Shown here: piece by piece, positions 5,880-29,351 of the stretch
How the letters are laid out: each line of letters starts with the position of its first letter
Position numbering within the stretch: the stretch's first letter is position 1
Origin: Shewanella seohaensis
GTDB taxonomy: Bacteria > Pseudomonadota > Gammaproteobacteria > Enterobacterales > Shewanellaceae
NCBI RefSeq assembly: GCF_025449215.1
Contig: NZ_CP104900.1
Coordinates: 1,550,001-1,614,000 of the forward strand
Length of the DNA: 64,000 nucleotides
Direction: 5' to 3'
Program-made: the position numbers and the translations under genes
Notes under the pieces: model-generated
What the model saw: only the letters and a program-made list of their open reading frames with translations
Database searches by the model: none
Told to the model about the DNA's origin: nothing

Positions 5880-6311
5880 ATGCGTTCAGGTCAAATACTC
5901 TGGCCCACAGATTTTTCGGAAACTGCGGCCCATGCGCTACGTTATGCTATTGAAATGGCAAATCTATACCATGTAGGGCTAAAGATTTTACACGTTGTTG
6001 AGCAACCCTTGGGTGACGAAAACTATATGATCTTAGCGATCACGCCCGAAGAACTCGCTAAGAGTATGGAAGAAGCCGCCGCAACTAAGATGCAGGCTTT
6101 ACTCGAGGGGCTCAAAACCGAATTACCAATCACGACCTTAATTCGCCGTGGCGATCCCGTCGATCAGATCCTCGAAGAGGCGAACGGTAAGGATGTGGGC
6201 ATGGTGGTAATTGCCAGCCATGGCAGGACGGGGATCTCGCACTTTTTACACACCAATGTCGCCGAGGCTGTTGCCAATGGCGCCGATTGCCCAGTACTGG
6301 TAGTAAAATAG
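5880..6311 (+). CDS. Universal stress protein, UspA family (first of two)
   Basis: Cytoplasmic stress protein of 143 residues with the Usp alpha/beta fold. The family opening is present (ILWPTDFSETAAHALRYAIE), followed by KILHVVE, and the end is MVVIASHGRTGISHFLHTNV then CPVLVVK. The nucleotide-site signature G-2x-G-9x-G(S/T) is incomplete: after SHGRTG no G(S/T) follows at the expected distance, so ATP binding is doubtful. A ribosome site AAGGAGAA precedes the ATG. It follows the SpoIIAA-like gene and is separated from its paralogue at 6486 by a terminator. Confidence 0.9.
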   Translation: MRSGQILWPTDFSETAAHALRYAIEMANLYHVGLKILHVVEQPLGDENYMILAITPEELAKSMEEAAATKMQALLEGLKTELPITTLIRRGDPVDQILEEANGKDVGMVVIASHGRTGISHFLHTNVAEAVANGADCPVLVVK

Positions 6312-8992: not shown

Positions 8993-10464
8993 AAGAGCGC
9001 GGATTTTGGTTCGACACTGAGGCTAAGTTAATTCGACGAGCCGTTTTACCGCCCTTAGAGCAGGATATAAGCGCCGATGTTGCCATTATCGGTGCGGGGT
9101 ATTCCGGGCTTTGGACGGCCTATTATCTAAAACAATACCAGCCAAATCTGTCAGTGGTTATCCTTGAGGCCGAATGCATAGGCCAAGGTGCATCCGGTCG
9201 AAATGGCGGTTGGTTGATGGGCAGTTTTAGTGGCGATGTGGCCTATCTCAATCTGCTCGAGGGCGAGCAGCGCCTTAGCGCTAAAGCCATTATTCAAGCA
9301 ACCATTTCTGAAGTGGCCACCGTTTGCGCCAAGCATCATATCGACTGTGATTTACACCACGGCGGTAACTTGCGGGTGGCGGCGCGTTATCCCGAGCAAT
9401 TAGCGAATATTAAAGCCGAATTAGCGCAGTGGCGCGCAGAAGGTTTTGGTGAAGAAGATATTCGTTGGATGGATAAGGCCGAGCTCGATAAGCAAGTGTC
9501 TATGGCCGAGGGCCAAGCAGCACTTTTTACTCCCCATTGCGCGCGAATACACCCGGCGAAACTCGTCTGTGGTTTGGCTGACCTAGTGCAACGCTTAGGG
9601 GTAAAGATCTACGAGCACACTCCAGTAAATCACATGGCGCATCTTGGTGATGCACAAACCCTATTGCAAACACCAAAGGGACGAGTTCGTGCGGCGATTG
9701 TGGTGCCCGCAGTGGAAGGTTATCTGCGTCAGCTTAGTGGACTTGGGCGATTTACCTTACCCGTGCAGAGCCTACTTATCGCCACGGAGCCGTTAACGGA
9801 TGCCACATGGGATGCAATTGGCCTAGCCAATCGCGCGACCTTTAGTGATGCCAGCCGCATAGTGACTTATGGCCAGCGTAGCCCTGATAATCGGCTGATA
9901 TTTGGTGCCCGTGGCGGCTATGGCTTTGGCGCGAAAATACGCACAGAATTTGGTTTTGACCCTAAGCTGTTTAATGGGAAATTTCTTGTAAATCAAAGCC
10001 TACCTCAGCGTGCTTTCGAGGGCGAATTTGGCTTTCGTTATCAATTATTATTGGCGTTATTTCCTCAACTTAAGGGCGTACAAATTACCCATGGTTGGGG
10101 CGGAACGTTAGCCTTGGCGAGGCGCTTTGCTCCCCATGCCATTTTTGATAAAAGTCTCGGTTTAGGCCTGATTGGCGGCTATGGCGGGGAAGGTGTCGGG
10201 GCGGCAAACCTATTTGCCCGTACGCTGGTGGACTTAATATTAGGGCGTGATACACAGCTTGCATCTATGCCTTGGGCGTTTAATGCTCCAGTTCAACAGG
10301 TATTAGCACCCTGGGAGCGCGAGCCTTTACCTTGGCTCGCATACCATGGCATGAATAAGATTTTTGCGTGGGAAGATAGGCTCTACAGTCAGCCAAAGAG
10401 TGCGGCTTGGCAAAAGGGTTTAGCTAAGCGGCTCGCGAATCGATTAGAAGGCTTAATGAGTTAA
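8989..10464 (+). CDS. FAD-dependent oxidoreductase (DAO family)
   Basis: A 491-residue flavoenzyme of the D-amino-acid-oxidase/glycine-oxidase superfamily, similar in outline to gamma-glutamylputrescine oxidase and related amine oxidases. The dinucleotide-binding motif is VAIIGAGYSGLWTAYYL near residues 30-46, followed by VVILEAECIGQGASGRNGGWLMG, a typical flavin-contact segment. The C-terminal FAD site is GLGLIGGYGGEGVGAANLFARTL. Start is the GTG at 8989, which overlaps the stop of the small winged-helix gene. Substrate is not determined by the sequence; a secondary amine or polyamine derivative is plausible. The next gene is about 100 bases downstream. Confidence 0.85.
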   Translation: MKERGFWFDTEAKLIRRAVLPPLEQDISADVAIIGAGYSGLWTAYYLKQYQPNLSVVILEAECIGQGASGRNGGWLMGSFSGDVAYLNLLEGEQRLSAKAIIQATISEVATVCAKHHIDCDLHHGGNLRVAARYPEQLANIKAELAQWRAEGFGEEDIRWMDKAELDKQVSMAEGQAALFTPHCARIHPAKLVCGLADLVQRLGVKIYEHTPVNHMAHLGDAQTLLQTPKGRVRAAIVVPAVEGYLRQLSGLGRFTLPVQSLLIATEPLTDATWDAIGLANRATFSDASRIVTYGQRSPDNRLIFGARGGYGFGAKIRTEFGFDPKLFNGKFLVNQSLPQRAFEGEFGFRYQLLLALFPQLKGVQITHGWGGTLALARRFAPHAIFDKSLGLGLIGGYGGEGVGAANLFARTLVDLILGRDTQLASMPWAFNAPVQQVLAPWEREPLPWLAYHGMNKIFAWEDRLYSQPKSAAWQKGLAKRLANRLEGLMS

Positions 10465-10560
10465 TCTACTTATAAACCAGAGAGTTAATCAGCCCATTAC
10501 CGATTCATCTTTTTAATAAACGATTTATTCATACACGATAACTACTTTGATGATCCGATT

Positions 10561-10926
10561 ATGTTAACCGAGCAGTTTTTTCTACAGGGCCGCTTTAAGC
10601 TGGAGACCATTCCCCATGAAATGCGCATGTCCCATTGGGTATATGCGCCGAGATTAACCGACACGCAAAGCGGGCAAGTGCTGCTCGACCTTGTCGGCCA
10701 ATGCTGGGATTGTCAGTCAGCCATTGAGCAGGACAATACGCTTTGTCTAACACTCGATGGCTACCCCGACAGAGCCAACTGGCTCGAGTTGGCCTTTTTA
10801 CCCGAGACGGGGCGAGTCCAGCTAAAGGCTGGCAATATCAATGCTAAGGCACTAATGGCACAAGCGTTTCTGCCTCAGGAGCTGACTAGCTACCTTGATA
10901 GGTTACGCGCGAATATCCTCAGTTAA
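10561..10926 (+). CDS. Conserved hypothetical protein, 121 aa
   Basis: I do not recognise the family. The product is soluble, without signal peptide or membrane segment. It has a short motif with two cysteines (VGQCWDCQ) and aromatic-rich strands (HWVYAPRL, NWLELAFLPETGRVQLKAG), which suggests a small beta-rich protein. Its stop codon overlaps by three bases the stop of the convergent DUF2956 gene. The codon composition matches its neighbours. Confidence 0.7.
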   Translation: MLTEQFFLQGRFKLETIPHEMRMSHWVYAPRLTDTQSGQVLLDLVGQCWDCQSAIEQDNTLCLTLDGYPDRANWLELAFLPETGRVQLKAGNINAKALMAQAFLPQELTSYLDRLRANILS

Positions 10927-25245: not shown

Positions 25246-26676
25246 CTAAGGGCTAAAGAAGCCGGTTTCTTGGCTAACGCTTTGTTCAGGTTTGCTCACA
25301 TCCGTTACCGAGAATTCGATAATTTTGCGCCCCGTTGGGATTGCATCCTTATCGGCTAATACTGTCACGGGATAATCCGATTGCTCGCCCGGAGCAAGGG
25401 TAATGACCGAGTCGGCAATTAAGCTGAAGGGCATTTCGCTGTTGACCGCGAGTTGATATTGCTTGGTTTGCTGAGTCTTGTTACGGATCTTCAGCTGGTA
25501 GGTATTTTCAACTTTGTTATCGGCGGTTTCGCGATACAGGCTCTGTCTGTCGCGAATGACGTTAAGCTGAATTTCACTGCGACTGGAGAGATCTAAACCT
25601 ATTACAACCAACATAATGACAACGGCTGCGCCGTAACCTAAAAAGCGTGGCGAGCGCCAGTTGGAATGGGTGATGCCCTTTAATTCATTCTCGCTGACAT
25701 AGCTAATTAGGTTTTGTTTGTAGTCGAATTTTTGCATGGTTTCATTACAGGCATCGACACAGGCACCGCAGTTAATGCACTCGTATTGGAGCCCTTGGCG
25801 AATATCAATCCCCGTCGGGCAGACTTCGACACATAAGTTACAGTCAACACAATCACCGAGTTCAGTCTGTTGTTTGCGCTTACGTGGGCCGCGCGCTTCG
25901 CCGCGTGCGGCATCATAGGTGACGGTTTTAGTGTTGGCATCGAACATGACTGCCTGAAAACGCGCATAGGGGCAGCAGTGTAAGCACATTTGCTCGCGCA
26001 TCCAGCCAGCATTTAAGTAAGTACAAATCGCGAAAAACCATACCCAGCAGGTTGTCCAAAAGCCGGCGTTGCCGGTAAAAATATCCAAATAGAGTTCGCG
26101 GGCGGGGATGAAATAACCGATGAATCCACAGCCAGTAATTAAGGCGGCTAATCCCCACAGGCCGTGTTTGAGACTTCTTTTACCGAGTTTATTGGCTGAC
26201 CATGGCGCCTTATCGAGCAATTTGCGTTTGTTGCTGTTGCCCTCAATTCGGCTCTCGAGCCAAACAAACATAAAAGTCCACGCGGTTTGCGGGCAAAGAT
26301 AGCCACACCAGACACGCCCCCAAAACACAGTAATGAAAAACAACCCAAAGGCGGCGGCAATAAACACCCAAGCGAGCAAGGTGAAATCCTGTGGCCAGAG
26401 CGTGAGGCCAAAAAAGAAGAACTGCTGCTGACTCACATCCAGCAATATCGCTTGCCGACCATCAAAGGAAATAAAGGGCAGAGCAAAAAACAGCAGTACT
26501 AACAGGCTATTCATTGTGGTTCTTAGACGCTGAAAATAACCCTTCTGCTCTCGAAAATGAATCTGACCATTCACGGGGGCTGGTTTATCGTCCGCCTGGA
26601 TATTTTTTACGGGGATAAATTGCTCAGCAGAGGGGCGCTTGGCGTTCTCTCTGTGTTGGATGTCACTTTTGGGCAT
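25246..26676 (-). CDS. ccoG: CcoG/RdxA-type polyferredoxin, cytochrome c oxidase accessory protein
   Basis: Membrane iron-sulfur protein implicated in copper handling for cbb3-oxidase assembly. It has membrane helices (LLVLLFFALPFISF, FFFFGLTLWPQDF, LLAWVFIAAAFGLFFI), the conserved WCGYLCPQTAWTF motif, CLHCCPYARFQAVMFD, and two 4Fe-4S clusters (CVDCNLCVEVCPTGIDIRQG and CINCGACVDACNETM). The C-terminal periplasmic region is Ig-like (QLKIRNKTQQTKQYQLAVN). Start is at 26676 (MPKSDIQHREN) with an AGGA site; a longer in-frame start at 26772 would overlap the sigma-54 promoter at 26716-26732. Length is 476 residues. The cco structural genes are not nearby, so this may be a second copy. Confidence 0.9.
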   Translation of the reverse strand: MPKSDIQHRENAKRPSAEQFIPVKNIQADDKPAPVNGQIHFREQKGYFQRLRTTMNSLLVLLFFALPFISFDGRQAILLDVSQQQFFFFGLTLWPQDFTLLAWVFIAAAFGLFFITVFWGRVWCGYLCPQTAWTFMFVWLESRIEGNSNKRKLLDKAPWSANKLGKRSLKHGLWGLAALITGCGFIGYFIPARELYLDIFTGNAGFWTTCWVWFFAICTYLNAGWMREQMCLHCCPYARFQAVMFDANTKTVTYDAARGEARGPRKRKQQTELGDCVDCNLCVEVCPTGIDIRQGLQYECINCGACVDACNETMQKFDYKQNLISYVSENELKGITHSNWRSPRFLGYGAAVVIMLVVIGLDLSSRSEIQLNVIRDRQSLYRETADNKVENTYQLKIRNKTQQTKQYQLAVNSEMPFSLIADSVITLAPGEQSDYPVTVLADKDAIPTGRKIIEFSVTDVSKPEQSVSQETGFFSP

Positions 26677-26715
26677 ATGCTGTCCTAACGGCTTAAATAA
26701 GATTCGGCTCCCTAT

Positions 26716-26732
26716 AGCAAGCGTTAGGCCAA
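26716..26732 (-). promoter_or_regulatory. Sigma-54 promoter of ccoG
   Basis: On the minus strand TTGGCCTAACGCTTGCT fits the sigma-54 consensus YTGGCACGRNNNTTGCW: the GG of the -24 element and the GC of the -12 element are present with exact spacing, and 11 of 14 specified positions match. The transcript would start near 26703, about 27 bases before the ccoG ATG. Confidence 0.7.
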
Positions 26733-26783
26733 GTTTAACGTATTGATTTTTAATGGTTAAATTGGATGGCAATTTGGCGGGTG

Positions 26784-26816
26784 TCGCGATATATCGCTAA
26801 TTGGCGATATATCGCG
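26784..26816. promoter_or_regulatory. Tandem palindromic operators (upstream activator sites for ccoG)
   Basis: Two copies of the perfect palindrome GCGATATATCGC (26786-26797 and 26804-26815), centres 18 bp apart, lie about 80-115 bp upstream of the predicted ccoG transcription start, the usual place for a sigma-54 activator. The two copies can also fold into one 13-bp stem with a 6-nt loop. A near-identical third site precedes the activator gene. Confidence 0.65.
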
Positions 26817-26825
26817 TTTTTAAAG

Positions 26826-28292
26826 TTATTCTTCCGCGAGGGTTTGACGTGTAATCCCGAGCTTCTTCATCCGCGATCTAAGTGTACTTGGCGGGACGCC
26901 GAGCACATTGGCCGCACCGTTGGGGCCCGAAATACGCCAATTGAGCTGCTTTAATGTTTGCTCTATGTGTTGTGCTTCCGCCTCGGCCAAGGTTTGTAAT
27001 GGTGAGGCCGCGGTTTGAGTCTGCAGGTGATGCGTGGGCATGGCATGGATATGTAAAATATCCGTTTGAGATAAAATGGCCTCCCGCTCGAGGATATTTT
27101 GCAATTCACGCACATTACCCGGCCAGCTGTAGGCCATCAGTTTTTGCAGACCTTTTTGGCTCACGCCGCGCAGTTTCTTACCGAGTTTGCGGTTTAGGGA
27201 ATGCAAAATGTGGCTGACAAGCTCGGGCATGTCCTCAAGTCTTGCCCTCAGCGGCGGCACTTGGATGGGGAAGACGTTCAAGCGGTAATAGAGATCCATC
27301 CTGAATAAGCCCTGTTCAACGCGCTTGAGTAAATCATGGTGACTGGCGGCGACTAAGCGAATATCGACCTTAATGGTTTCACTGCCGCCGAGTCGTTCGA
27401 AGGATTGCTCTTGGATCACCCGAAGTAACTTAGATTGCGCCTCCAAACTTAATTCGGCCACCTCATCGAGAAACAGCGTCCCTTGATGGGCGAGTTCGAA
27501 GCGGCCCTTGCGCAGCTGAGTCGCACCAGTAAAGGCACCTTTCTCATGACCAAACAACTCACTCTCTAACAGCGAGGCTGAAAACGCCGCGCAGTTAACG
27601 CTGATCATGGGCTTATCTTTACGGCGACTCAGTTGATGTAAGTTACGGGCAACCAGTTCTTTGCCTGTGCCATTTTCGCCACAAATCAATACGGTACTGT
27701 CGGTATTGGCCACCATATGCAGCTGCTGGATCATATGACGGATCACCGCGCTACTGCCCGAAATATCCACATCGCCGGTCTTATCGGCTAACTCGGCTTG
27801 GAGATAATGATTCTCGCTGGCCAGTTGCTCCGACAGGGCTTGAACCTGCGCTAAAGCTTGACGTAGCGACTGCTCGGTTTGTTTCTGAATACTGATGTCA
27901 CGAAATATCGCGACTACGCCGATAAGCTTGTTGTCCCGATAGACGGGCGTCGAGCTGTAATGTACTGGAAAGCTGCTGCCATCTTTGCGCCAAAACACAT
28001 CGTGGGTGATTTCCCTTGCAATCCCATCCTTCAAGGTGTTGTAGATAGGACAATCTTCTTGGGGATAATGACTGCCATCCGCGTGGCTATGATGATGGCA
28101 ATTATGGATATTTTTGCCGAGTAATTCTTCATTCTTCCAGCCCGTCATGCGCTCAGCGGCGGGATTAATGAAGACGGCATTACCATTTAAATCAAACCCA
28201 TAAATGCCTTCACCCACGGCATTGAGCAGTAGCTGATTCTCTGGCAGAAAATGTTTATCCAAGGGCATTGCGGCGGGTTGTGTTGAGTTCAT
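26826..28292 (-). CDS. Sigma-54-dependent activator with PAS sensor (PAS-AAA-Fis)
   Basis: Enhancer-binding protein of 488 residues. A PAS domain (about residues 18-130) contains a His/Cys-rich stretch, [21 protein letters not shown], that could hold a metal or redox group. A short coiled coil follows. The AAA+ domain has Walker A ([17 protein letters not shown]), the sigma-54 contact loop EKGAFTGA, Walker B ([12 protein letters not shown]) and [15 protein letters not shown]. The C-terminal Fis-type helix-turn-helix is [22 protein letters not shown]. There is no receiver domain, so the PAS domain is the likely input. It is encoded upstream of ccoG on the same strand, separated by 149 bases that carry operators and a sigma-54 promoter. 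Confidence 0.92.
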
Positions 28293-28346
28293 TCCGTTGA
28301 TTCCTTAATACGAATGAGTGCCCAGAGTATAACCCCTTGAGTCGTG

Positions 28347-28362
28347 TCGCGATATATCGTGA
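28347..28362. promoter_or_regulatory. Third operator copy, at the activator gene's own promoter
   Basis: TCGCGATATATCGTGA matches the ccoG sites (GCGATATATCG shared, preceded by GTGTC in both this site and the first ccoG site). It lies 55-70 bases upstream of the activator start. On the minus strand TATACT at about 28326-28331 could be a sigma-70 -10 element, which would put the operator over the -35 region and suggest autorepression. Confidence 0.5.
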
Positions 28363-28720
28363 ATTACTCGGTAACGCTCGAATTGAATGGTTTAGAGATA
28401 TGTTTAGAGGTCTGACCATTAACTTGTTGATAATAAAAAGCTTATATTTTAATCGATCGAAAGTTGTATTTAGTGCTGGCGTAAAAGAGTAAATTGTTAT
28501 AAAAATGTTTCATAAATATCTTTGGCTAAGTTGACCTGAATAAAGCAGGCTCGCCCTTAATACTGGGGATTCACGGCAACGCAGGGATGTTTATTGCAGT
28601 ACGGTGTGAGTGAATGACCGAGTTAAATAGCGTTTTGGGGTGAGATGGCTGTGTTAAGAGTATGGAGTGATTTTCTGCCCACCTTTCCGGGAAATTACTT
28701 TCTACTGATTTGAAGTGTGC
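28363..28720. other. Intergenic region, no gene seen; possible small RNA
   Basis: Part of a gap of about 510 bases between the activator and the membrane thioredoxin gene. I find no convincing open frame. On the plus strand the stretch from about 28565 leads into a strong hairpin with a T tract at 28721-28746, so a plus-strand RNA of 150-180 nt is possible; a TTGACC at 28531 is 21 bases from TAATAC, too far for a standard promoter. Confidence 0.25.
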
Positions 28721-28805: not shown

Positions 28806-29351
28806 TTACAGTGCTTTTGCCTGAGCTAAGCCATTAAGCACGGCCTCTATGGTGAGCGTTGAAGGCAGCACTATGCCGTTTGGCGTCCTTGGACCATAGA
28901 CCTTATTGTAAGGTGTACCCGGTACGCCTTCATGCTTCATATAACCCGCAATGGTGGAATCGGCTTCGCTCCAATTTCCCTGCATCAAAATAACCTTGTC
29001 GGCCATCAGCGCATTCACCACTTGCTCTCTATGGGTGACTTCAGCCTTGTTGGTTTGGCAAATGCTGCACCAGTCTGAGGTGATATCCACAAACACTGTG
29101 TAGCCATCGGCGACCAGCGGCGCGATTTTTTCAGGGGCCAGCGTATGCCACTGCAGCTTTTGATAGGCTTGATAATCTTCGCCTTTATGTACAAAACCGA
29201 TAATTCCGCCTAGACCTACGGCGAAAAATCCCAATACAAAAATTACCGCGAGTGGAATGCGCTTACCTTTGCTGCGTTGCCAGATTAGCAGGCCAATCGC
29301 GCTCACGAGTAATGCGAGAATGACCAGACTGATAAGAGTGATAGTGCCCAT
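28806..29351 (-). CDS. Membrane-anchored thioredoxin-like protein (DsbD C-terminal-domain type)
   Basis: A 181-residue protein with two N-terminal transmembrane helices (LISLVILALLVSAIGLLIW and LAVIFVLGFFAVGLGGIIGFV) and a thioredoxin-fold domain. The active site is SDWCSICQTNK, a CxxC pair, which together with VFVDITSDWCSIC and GVPGTPYNKVYGP resembles the gamma domain of DsbD/ScsB. The central electron-transfer membrane domain of DsbD is absent, so it must receive electrons from another protein or act as an oxidant or a metal-resistance factor. It has its own terminator. Function beyond thiol exchange is inferred. Confidence 0.82.
   Translation of the reverse strand: MGTITLISLVILALLVSAIGLLIWQRSKGKRIPLAVIFVLGFFAVGLGGIIGFVHKGEDYQAYQKLQWHTLAPEKIAPLVADGYTVFVDITSDWCSICQTNKAEVTHREQVVNALMADKVILMQGNWSEADSTIAGYMKHEGVPGTPYNKVYGPRTPNGIVLPSTLTIEAVLNGLAQAKAL

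Follow-up and report, generated by a model that had tools for sequence, protein, structure and literature searches.

A probable one-target sigma-54 circuit for a second CcoG paralogue in Shewanella

The closest described relatives of the locus analysed here are the CcoG/RdxA/FixG cupric reductases, the PAS-AAA+-Fis activators of the CynF/NitA type and the gene pair SO_3660/SO_3662 of Shewanella oneidensis MR-1. In the accessible parts of the respective papers, CcoG is presented as a cupric reductase (PMC8267372), which in R. capsulatus acts for the cbb3 oxidase (PMC7558416); CynF is reported to be needed for expression of cynABDS, which cyanate induces (PMC6627978); and nit1C is described as being regulated by NitA, a sigma-54 protein of the Fis family (PMC11049912). 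For S. oneidensis, the accessible part of one study calls SO3662 FixG-related and gives it the value -1.18 in an electrode comparison (PMC3271074), and that of Rowe et al. 2021 (PMC8357807) names SO_3660 a transcriptional regulator and SO_3662 an inner-membrane ferredoxin. According to the same part of Rowe et al., clean deletions of SO_3660 and SO_3662 lose cathodic electron uptake, not deposition, and are complemented, and dye oxidation fails in SO_3662 mutants in an assay that used fumarate or nitrate (PMC8357807). The dye phenotype is also reported there for disruptions at each of the loci SO_3656 to SO_3665 (PMC8357807), which weakens a specific link of the pair to uptake. The words ‘sigma’ and ‘CcoG’ do not occur in the accessible part of that paper, and nothing was found there on the operator, the type of promoter or the status as a paralogue. 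Searches of the open-access literature, covering articles and not their supplements, returned no description of sigma-54 together with ccoG in Shewanella; searches of that literature for the PAS motif, and for cyanide with PAS, returned nothing naming this system.

The window, meaning the whole 64,000-nucleotide stretch of DNA that was analysed, comes from a 4.75-Mb genome on one contig. Read along its minus strand, the locus consists of an activator gene (28292-26826), two palindromes (26815-26804 and 26797-26786), a -24/-12 site (26732-26716) and a ccoG/fixG gene that starts at 26676. The activator (26826..28292, minus strand, 488 aa) contains a PAS domain (residues 20-134; PF00989/PF13426), an AAA+ domain (PF00158), a lid (PF25601) and a Fis-type helix-turn-helix (residues 434-478; PF02954), each scoring above its Pfam cut-off. 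The GAFTGA loop named in the initial annotation is located at residue 252, and this motif in a Sigma54_activat AAA+ domain, together with the Fis-type helix-turn-helix, assigns the protein to the sigma-54-dependent activators. The PAS coding region (residues 13-145; 27858..28256, minus strand; pLDDT 91) includes the aligned residues H63, H67, H68, H70, Y76 and C81. The ccoG/fixG-family gene (25246..26676, minus strand, 476 aa) encodes two 4Fe-4S cysteine motifs and reaches 518 bits against the TIGR02745 equivalog cut-off of 316.7, which identifies the product as CcoG/FixG. Directly upstream of the activator gene, and sharing its strand, is a thioredoxin-like ORF (PF13899) at 28806-29351 of the window; genome G092 likewise has one.

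On re-scanning, the two copies of GCGATATATCGC described in the initial annotation proved exact, with the copy distal to ccoG at 26804..26815, the proximal copy at 26786..26797 and a distance of 18 bp between them. The GG of the -24 element and the centre of the proximal copy are 61 bp apart. The predicted sigma-54 promoter of ccoG, TTGGCCTAACGCTTGCT, occupies the position first given for it (26716..26732, minus strand); its spacing, earlier read as N8, is in fact TGGC-N7-TTGC, the canonical GG-N10-GC, and the gap to the ATG at 26676 measures 39 bases rather than 27. The near-identical third palindrome is also present: GCGATATATCGT at 28349..28360, upstream of the activator gene, differs from the 12-mer by one mismatch and forms the centre of the 16-mer TCGCGATATATCGTGA at 28347-28362. 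An Rfam scan of 26600-28500 returned no match.

These parts probably form a one-target sigma-54 circuit for a dedicated CcoG paralogue in Shewanella and some related bacteria, as judged from sequence comparison. The PAS-AAA+-Fis activator would bind the two side-by-side CGATATATCG operators upstream of the ccoG -24/-12 promoter and, once its PAS domain is triggered, would remodel the sigma-54 polymerase at that promoter. Its own predicted sigma-70-type promoter has one operator across the -35 position, which the activator would occupy to repress itself. Within the inner membrane, the iron-sulfur clusters of the CcoG paralogue would carry electrons, either to copper or to another acceptor.

An activator orthologue was found in 102 of 129 genomes of the genus (E<=1e-120), a count in which G042 is included only via a longer paralogue of 49% identity and six genomes via partial matches (G003, G070, G113, G115, G126 and G129); the orthologue of Shewanella sp. 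SG41-4 is 72% identical. The flanking DNA was examined in 63 loci, namely the 21 best (L001-L021), a further 41 (L170-L210) and L060, which is the one Shewanella locus used from a scan of genome contigs whose listed matches were mostly distant activators. The initial annotation had treated the activator, the paired operator and the sigma-54 promoter on ccoG as one unit and had suggested looking for the palindrome at orthologous ccoG/activator pairs. Comparison bears this out for the gene pairing, the putative operator pair and the promoter: operator and sigma-54 site both lie between activator and ccoG in 58 of the 63 loci, which are related to each other, in some cases nearly identical, and do not provide independent counts, and four more loci carry the unit in displaced form. 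In G003 (L021, 1501-2553), the activator orthologue has internal stop codons and a truncated alignment, with operators, sigma-54 site and ccoG kept.

The distance from the proximal operator centre to the GG of the promoter is 69-73 bp in 52 of the 58 loci (69 in one, 70 in seven, 71 in 22, 72 in 18 and 73 in four) and 61-62 bp in four (61 in one, 62 in three), with single values of 81 and 85; the spacing of L204 is ambiguous, being 81 in one measurement and 63 in another. The steps of about 10 bases equal one helical turn, and the operator-promoter distance is thus helically phased, with the window's own value of 61 lying ten below the 71 of near relatives. The distance between the operators, in the 51 loci with two sites, is 18 bp in 45, 19 bp in five and 10 bp in one. 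The five loci outside the 58 are L202, where operators are present, no sigma-54 match was found and the -12 element reads GA, and the four loci of family f16 (L020, L203, L205 and L208). In these four, ccoG lies about 1 kb from the regulator, and the operators and promoter are found at ccoG, 71-72 bp apart; the element therefore follows its target and not the regulator. The displaced distance is 71 in each of L203, L205 and L208, the last with a degenerate operator, and 72 in G038 (L058), where the operators are at 10479 and 10499, the sigma-54 site is at 10575 and at least one gene (9640-10455) stands between regulator and ccoG. The same distance of 72 is retained in G092, which we take to be S. 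oneidensis MR-1, with a 279-bp insertion between regulator and operators. This insertion (L245, 11319-11597) has inverted GGGCGTGTTGAC/GTCAACACGCCC ends, resembles a MITE and starts at the end of the activator gene; neither the operators nor the promoter are disrupted by it.

The position of the element bears on a different explanation, in which the tandem palindrome is a hairpin, acting as terminator or attenuator behind the regulator gene, and the copies are not operators. On the plus strand the pair could fold into a 14-bp stem with T5 after it, and across 46 distinct pairs the paired arms of the two operators match in 473 of 552 cells, compared with 422 of 552 for self-matches, so that base pairing by itself is compatible with a hairpin. 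The T-run is however missing from the transcribed minus strand, variation at the inner pair 10/19 shows no covariation (GC 26, GT 7, AC 7 and AT 6 of 46) and the third copy of the palindrome stands alone. The distance from the regulator stop ranges from 13 to 309 bp in intact loci while the promoter distance is phased, and in four genomes the element is found about 1 kb from the regulator, at ccoG. A two-fold symmetry of the pair as a whole, with A/T at the outer and C/G at the inner ends, might account for the excess of cross-pairing instead, and a hairpin is very improbable as the explanation of the element.

Reading the palindromes as operators raises the matter of how specific they are. 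Under a first-order dinucleotide model, 0.005 exact copies of the 12-mer are expected per 64 kb. With up to two mismatches the 12-mer is not rare (seven found and 3.2 expected in 64 kb), and the 16-mer with up to two mismatches occurs at nine places in the window's own genome, compared with 12 and 5 for the reversed control, which is no excess. The exact tandem pair is found in 12 of 40 genomes, once in each and always adjoining this regulator, and its reversed control has no match in any of the 40. What lies beyond chance is the exact tandem pair and its conservation. Single 16-mer sites elsewhere cannot be judged, since in the window's own genome they show no excess over the control, and the regulon is accordingly taken as ccoG plus the activator itself, with weaker single-site targets possible. 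Four of the nine places are in this locus, including 27898-27913 inside the regulator coding sequence, where conservation is put down to the encoded protein (FRDI). The best outside match (L052), upstream of a porin gene, was rejected as a regulon member: by eye it sits inside a longer inverted repeat that looks like a terminator. The palindrome there is TCACGATATTTCGTGA, at about 6090-6115 between topoisomerase-like and porin-like ORFs, beside a GAF-type sigma-54 activator.

The third operator, or a variant with up to two mismatches, is found upstream of the activator in 62 of the 63 loci. The best -10-like hexamer, often TATACT, lies 22-26 bp from its centre in 35 of these 62 (a raw count), a gap that places the operator on the -35 position; in the window the putative -10 box TATACT is at 28326..28331 (minus strand) and the operator covers the -35. 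A consensus sigma-70 scan lists no promoter at this place, as there is no -35 match. The initial annotation had proposed that the regulator controls its own gene. The operator in front of the activator gene agrees with that proposal, but a sigma-54 route is unlikely given a site at the -35 of a TATACT-type -10 box. The lone operator suggests autorepression instead, which on this positional evidence is an even call or slightly better.

The ccoG gene of the proposed circuit is one of two. The window's genome holds two FixG-family genes, this one and G000:C1:558746, which are 49% identical. In the set of 40 genomes an activator orthologue is present in 21, and the same 21 hold two FixG copies; the other 19 comprise 14 with one copy and five with none. 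The oxidase gene ccoN is present in 34 of the 40. Of the 35 genomes that carry FixG at all, 34 have it, and the one that does not, G039, is a 91%-complete assembly of 450 contigs. Some genomes, for example G001, G008, G012 and G023, have ccoN and lack the regulator/ccoG pair. The window ccoG is thus the second paralogue, which co-occurs with the regulator, and the other copy tracks the cbb3 oxidase. This co-occurrence with ccoN makes the other copy the more likely housekeeping oxidase factor. In a ccoG tree of 52 rows, from which 10 of 62 candidates were left out (seven missed by the motif and three too short), a branch with modest support (85/35; 86% of 200 bootstrap trees) separates the activator-linked copies from the rest. 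No copy has lost any of the 12 iron-sulfur cysteines (23 of 23 linked copies and 29 of 29 others). Additional cysteines mark the linked group: C218 occurs in 23 of 23 linked and 5 of 29 other copies, C234 in 17 of 23 and 0 of 29, and C183 in 16 of 23 linked copies. The window protein therefore shares with the described CcoG/RdxA/FixG cupric reductases the TIGR02745 match and the 12 conserved cysteines, and differs from them as a second copy with the extra C218 and C234, encoded outside any ccoGHIS cluster.

The paralogue data also bear on the signal. One reading is that copper or the redox state of the cell is what the PAS domain detects, and that the paralogue feeds copper to the cbb3 oxidase, which would follow the role of R. 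capsulatus CcoG as a cupric reductase for cbb3 in the accessible part of that report (PMC7558416) and the full retention of the iron-sulfur cysteines. G150, in which ccoG and a gene for a copper P-type ATPase lie downstream of a related activator, points the same way. Against this, the first ccoG copy already tracks ccoN, there are ccoN genomes without the pair, and the SO_3662 mutants fail to oxidize the dye with fumarate or nitrate, conditions in which oxidases are not the acceptor and which argue against an effect only through the cbb3 oxidase (PMC8357807, accessible part). This copper reading is doubtful. The initial annotation had pointed to a His/Cys cluster in the PAS domain and considered a metal or redox signal tied to oxidase copper supply plausible; the cluster is real and conserved and may bind a metal, sense redox or respond to a reactive small molecule, and oxidase copper supply becomes one possibility for the paralogue and not the default, given that the other ccoG copy tracks ccoN.

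The preferred circuit, with its dedicated paralogue, has a counterpart in S. oneidensis. G092, taken as strain MR-1, carries the same regulator (97% identity) and ccoG as a pair of the same kind as that of the window. Annotation and gene order, including the single insertion between the genes, match this pair to SO_3660/SO_3662, to which the window pair presumably corresponds. Electron transfer by the CcoG paralogue would fit the electron-uptake phenotype of this counterpart. Extracellular electron transfer as the sole selective reason for the pair was considered and rejected, in that MtrB/PioB, found in 24 of the 40 genomes, does not track it: G018, G028 and G038 have the pair and no MtrB, and G001, G005, G008, G012 and G023 have MtrB and no pair. 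In the window's own genome the MtrB/PioB-type genes at G000:C1:2221052-2222979 and 2230869-2232820 each match in two pieces, split near profile position 150-170, from either a frame break or a sequencing error.

The sensor domain connects the regulator to a wider family. H63, H67, Y76 and C81 are present in 68 of 68 aligned PAS rows, H70 in 67 and H68 in 66, an invariance partly built in by the choice of these rows, cyn-linked ones included, for similarity to the window PAS. The PAS model has a mean pLDDT of 91.3, and its structural matches are generic PAS and LOV folds. Sequence alignments with DosP put no invariant His on the heme-ligand His of DosP. Seven chromosomal relatives of about 50% identity (L235-L238, L240, L244 and L059) adjoin cynS or cyn transport genes. 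Plasmid relatives are 46-49% identical over residues 18-482; of 575 matching records, 56 cover at least 80% of the query, and in the five regions opened the neighbours are a nit1C-type nitrilase cluster (L248, L252), cynABDS (L249, L250) or both (L251). All five plasmid proteins keep H63, H67, H68, Y76 and C81, and four of the five keep H70. The operator has relatives as well. The initial annotation knew of no described regulator with such a site, yet CGA-N4-TCG sites precede the activators of cyn clusters, and all of the 10 cyn-linked loci opened have at least one ahead of the activator (a raw count); the exact pattern is present in neither of two nit-only loci and neither of two others. In the G150 locus (L241), whose 51% relative is upstream of ccoG and the ATPase gene, GCGATATATCGC and TCGATATATCGT follow the activator and TTGGAACAAATCTTGCC can be seen beyond by eye, while a pattern scan finds one CGA-N4-TCG only and no sigma-54 site. 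Neither the sensor nor the predicted operator is unique to the ccoG regulator.

The window regulator thus shares the PAS-AAA+-Fis architecture and the PAS signature with activators of the CynF/NitA type, a kinship that rests on the gene neighbourhood of the relatives, and shares CGA-N4-TCG operators with the cyn-linked ones. It differs in its target gene, in the TATA core of its operator, in having one PAS domain rather than a longer N-terminus and in its AAA+ clade; its neighbour is ccoG, not cyn or nit genes. In an AAA+/HTH tree of 52 rows, which excludes L251, the ccoG activators form one clade (99/99) and the cyn and nit activators together another (90/90), with a deeper join that has no support. 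The wider clade on the ccoG side (98/95) includes L061, in which the His/Cys signature is missing. The window PAS profile matches 86 of 369 genomes of the class, many matches lying in frames of 700-2000 aa that resemble multi-domain sensors. In some gammaproteobacteria the His/Cys PAS variant is repeated within a genome, with up to 11 matches (G709), in long multi-domain frames. Among the 20 best loci opened, 18 have an activator, seven have cyn genes and seven have neither cyn genes nor an NTF2-like gene, which we take to be DUF1348. The same PAS signature occurs in the activators of L242, L239, L289, L290, L293 and L295, beside NTF2-like, PPOX-ferredoxin-reductase, short-chain dehydrogenase and hydrolase-like ORFs, neighbours which indicate that the family controls more than cyano genes.

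These relatives suggest a further reading of the signal, in which the PAS domain responds to a cyano compound such as cyanide or cyanate, or to a similar reactive species, and the CcoG paralogue contributes to rebuilding or bypassing respiratory metal centres under this stress. The plasmid and chromosomal relatives beside nit1C and cyn genes, the retained His/Cys residues of all five plasmid proteins and the requirement for CynF in cyanate-induced expression of cynABDS (PMC6627978, accessible part) are consistent with it, as is the G150 relative upstream of ccoG and the copper ATPase gene. It is nevertheless unlikely: cynS is absent from all 24 Shewanella genomes of the 40-genome set (it is present in G042, outside that set), the PAS signature family is broad, only seven of the 20 best loci have cyn genes and as many have neither these nor the NTF2-like gene, and in the AAA+ tree the ccoG activators and the cyn and nit activators are distinct clades, with a join that has no support. 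A more speculative and distinctly unlikely proposal is that the His/Cys PAS module of cyanate/cyanide regulators was rewired in Alteromonadales to a private CcoG paralogue with extra membrane cysteines, giving a stress-gated electron branch. In such a branch the signal would be a reactive species, of cyano type or other, or the poisoning of a terminal oxidase, and the inner-membrane iron-sulfur reductase made in response would reroute electrons. For the circuit itself, the His/Cys cluster may be the trigger whichever signal it receives.

The findings mean that the label ccoG hides two paralogues. Cathodic electron uptake in S. oneidensis depends on two genes for which a mechanism has been lacking, and the proposed circuit would supply a testable one, in which operator and sigma-54 promoter are specified and one gene is the target. 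The occurrence of the sensor family beside cyanate and cyanide genes means that the signal could be screened with a short list of compounds. If the stress-gated branch were real, the rerouting of electrons under stress would be what the electrode-uptake screen picked up.
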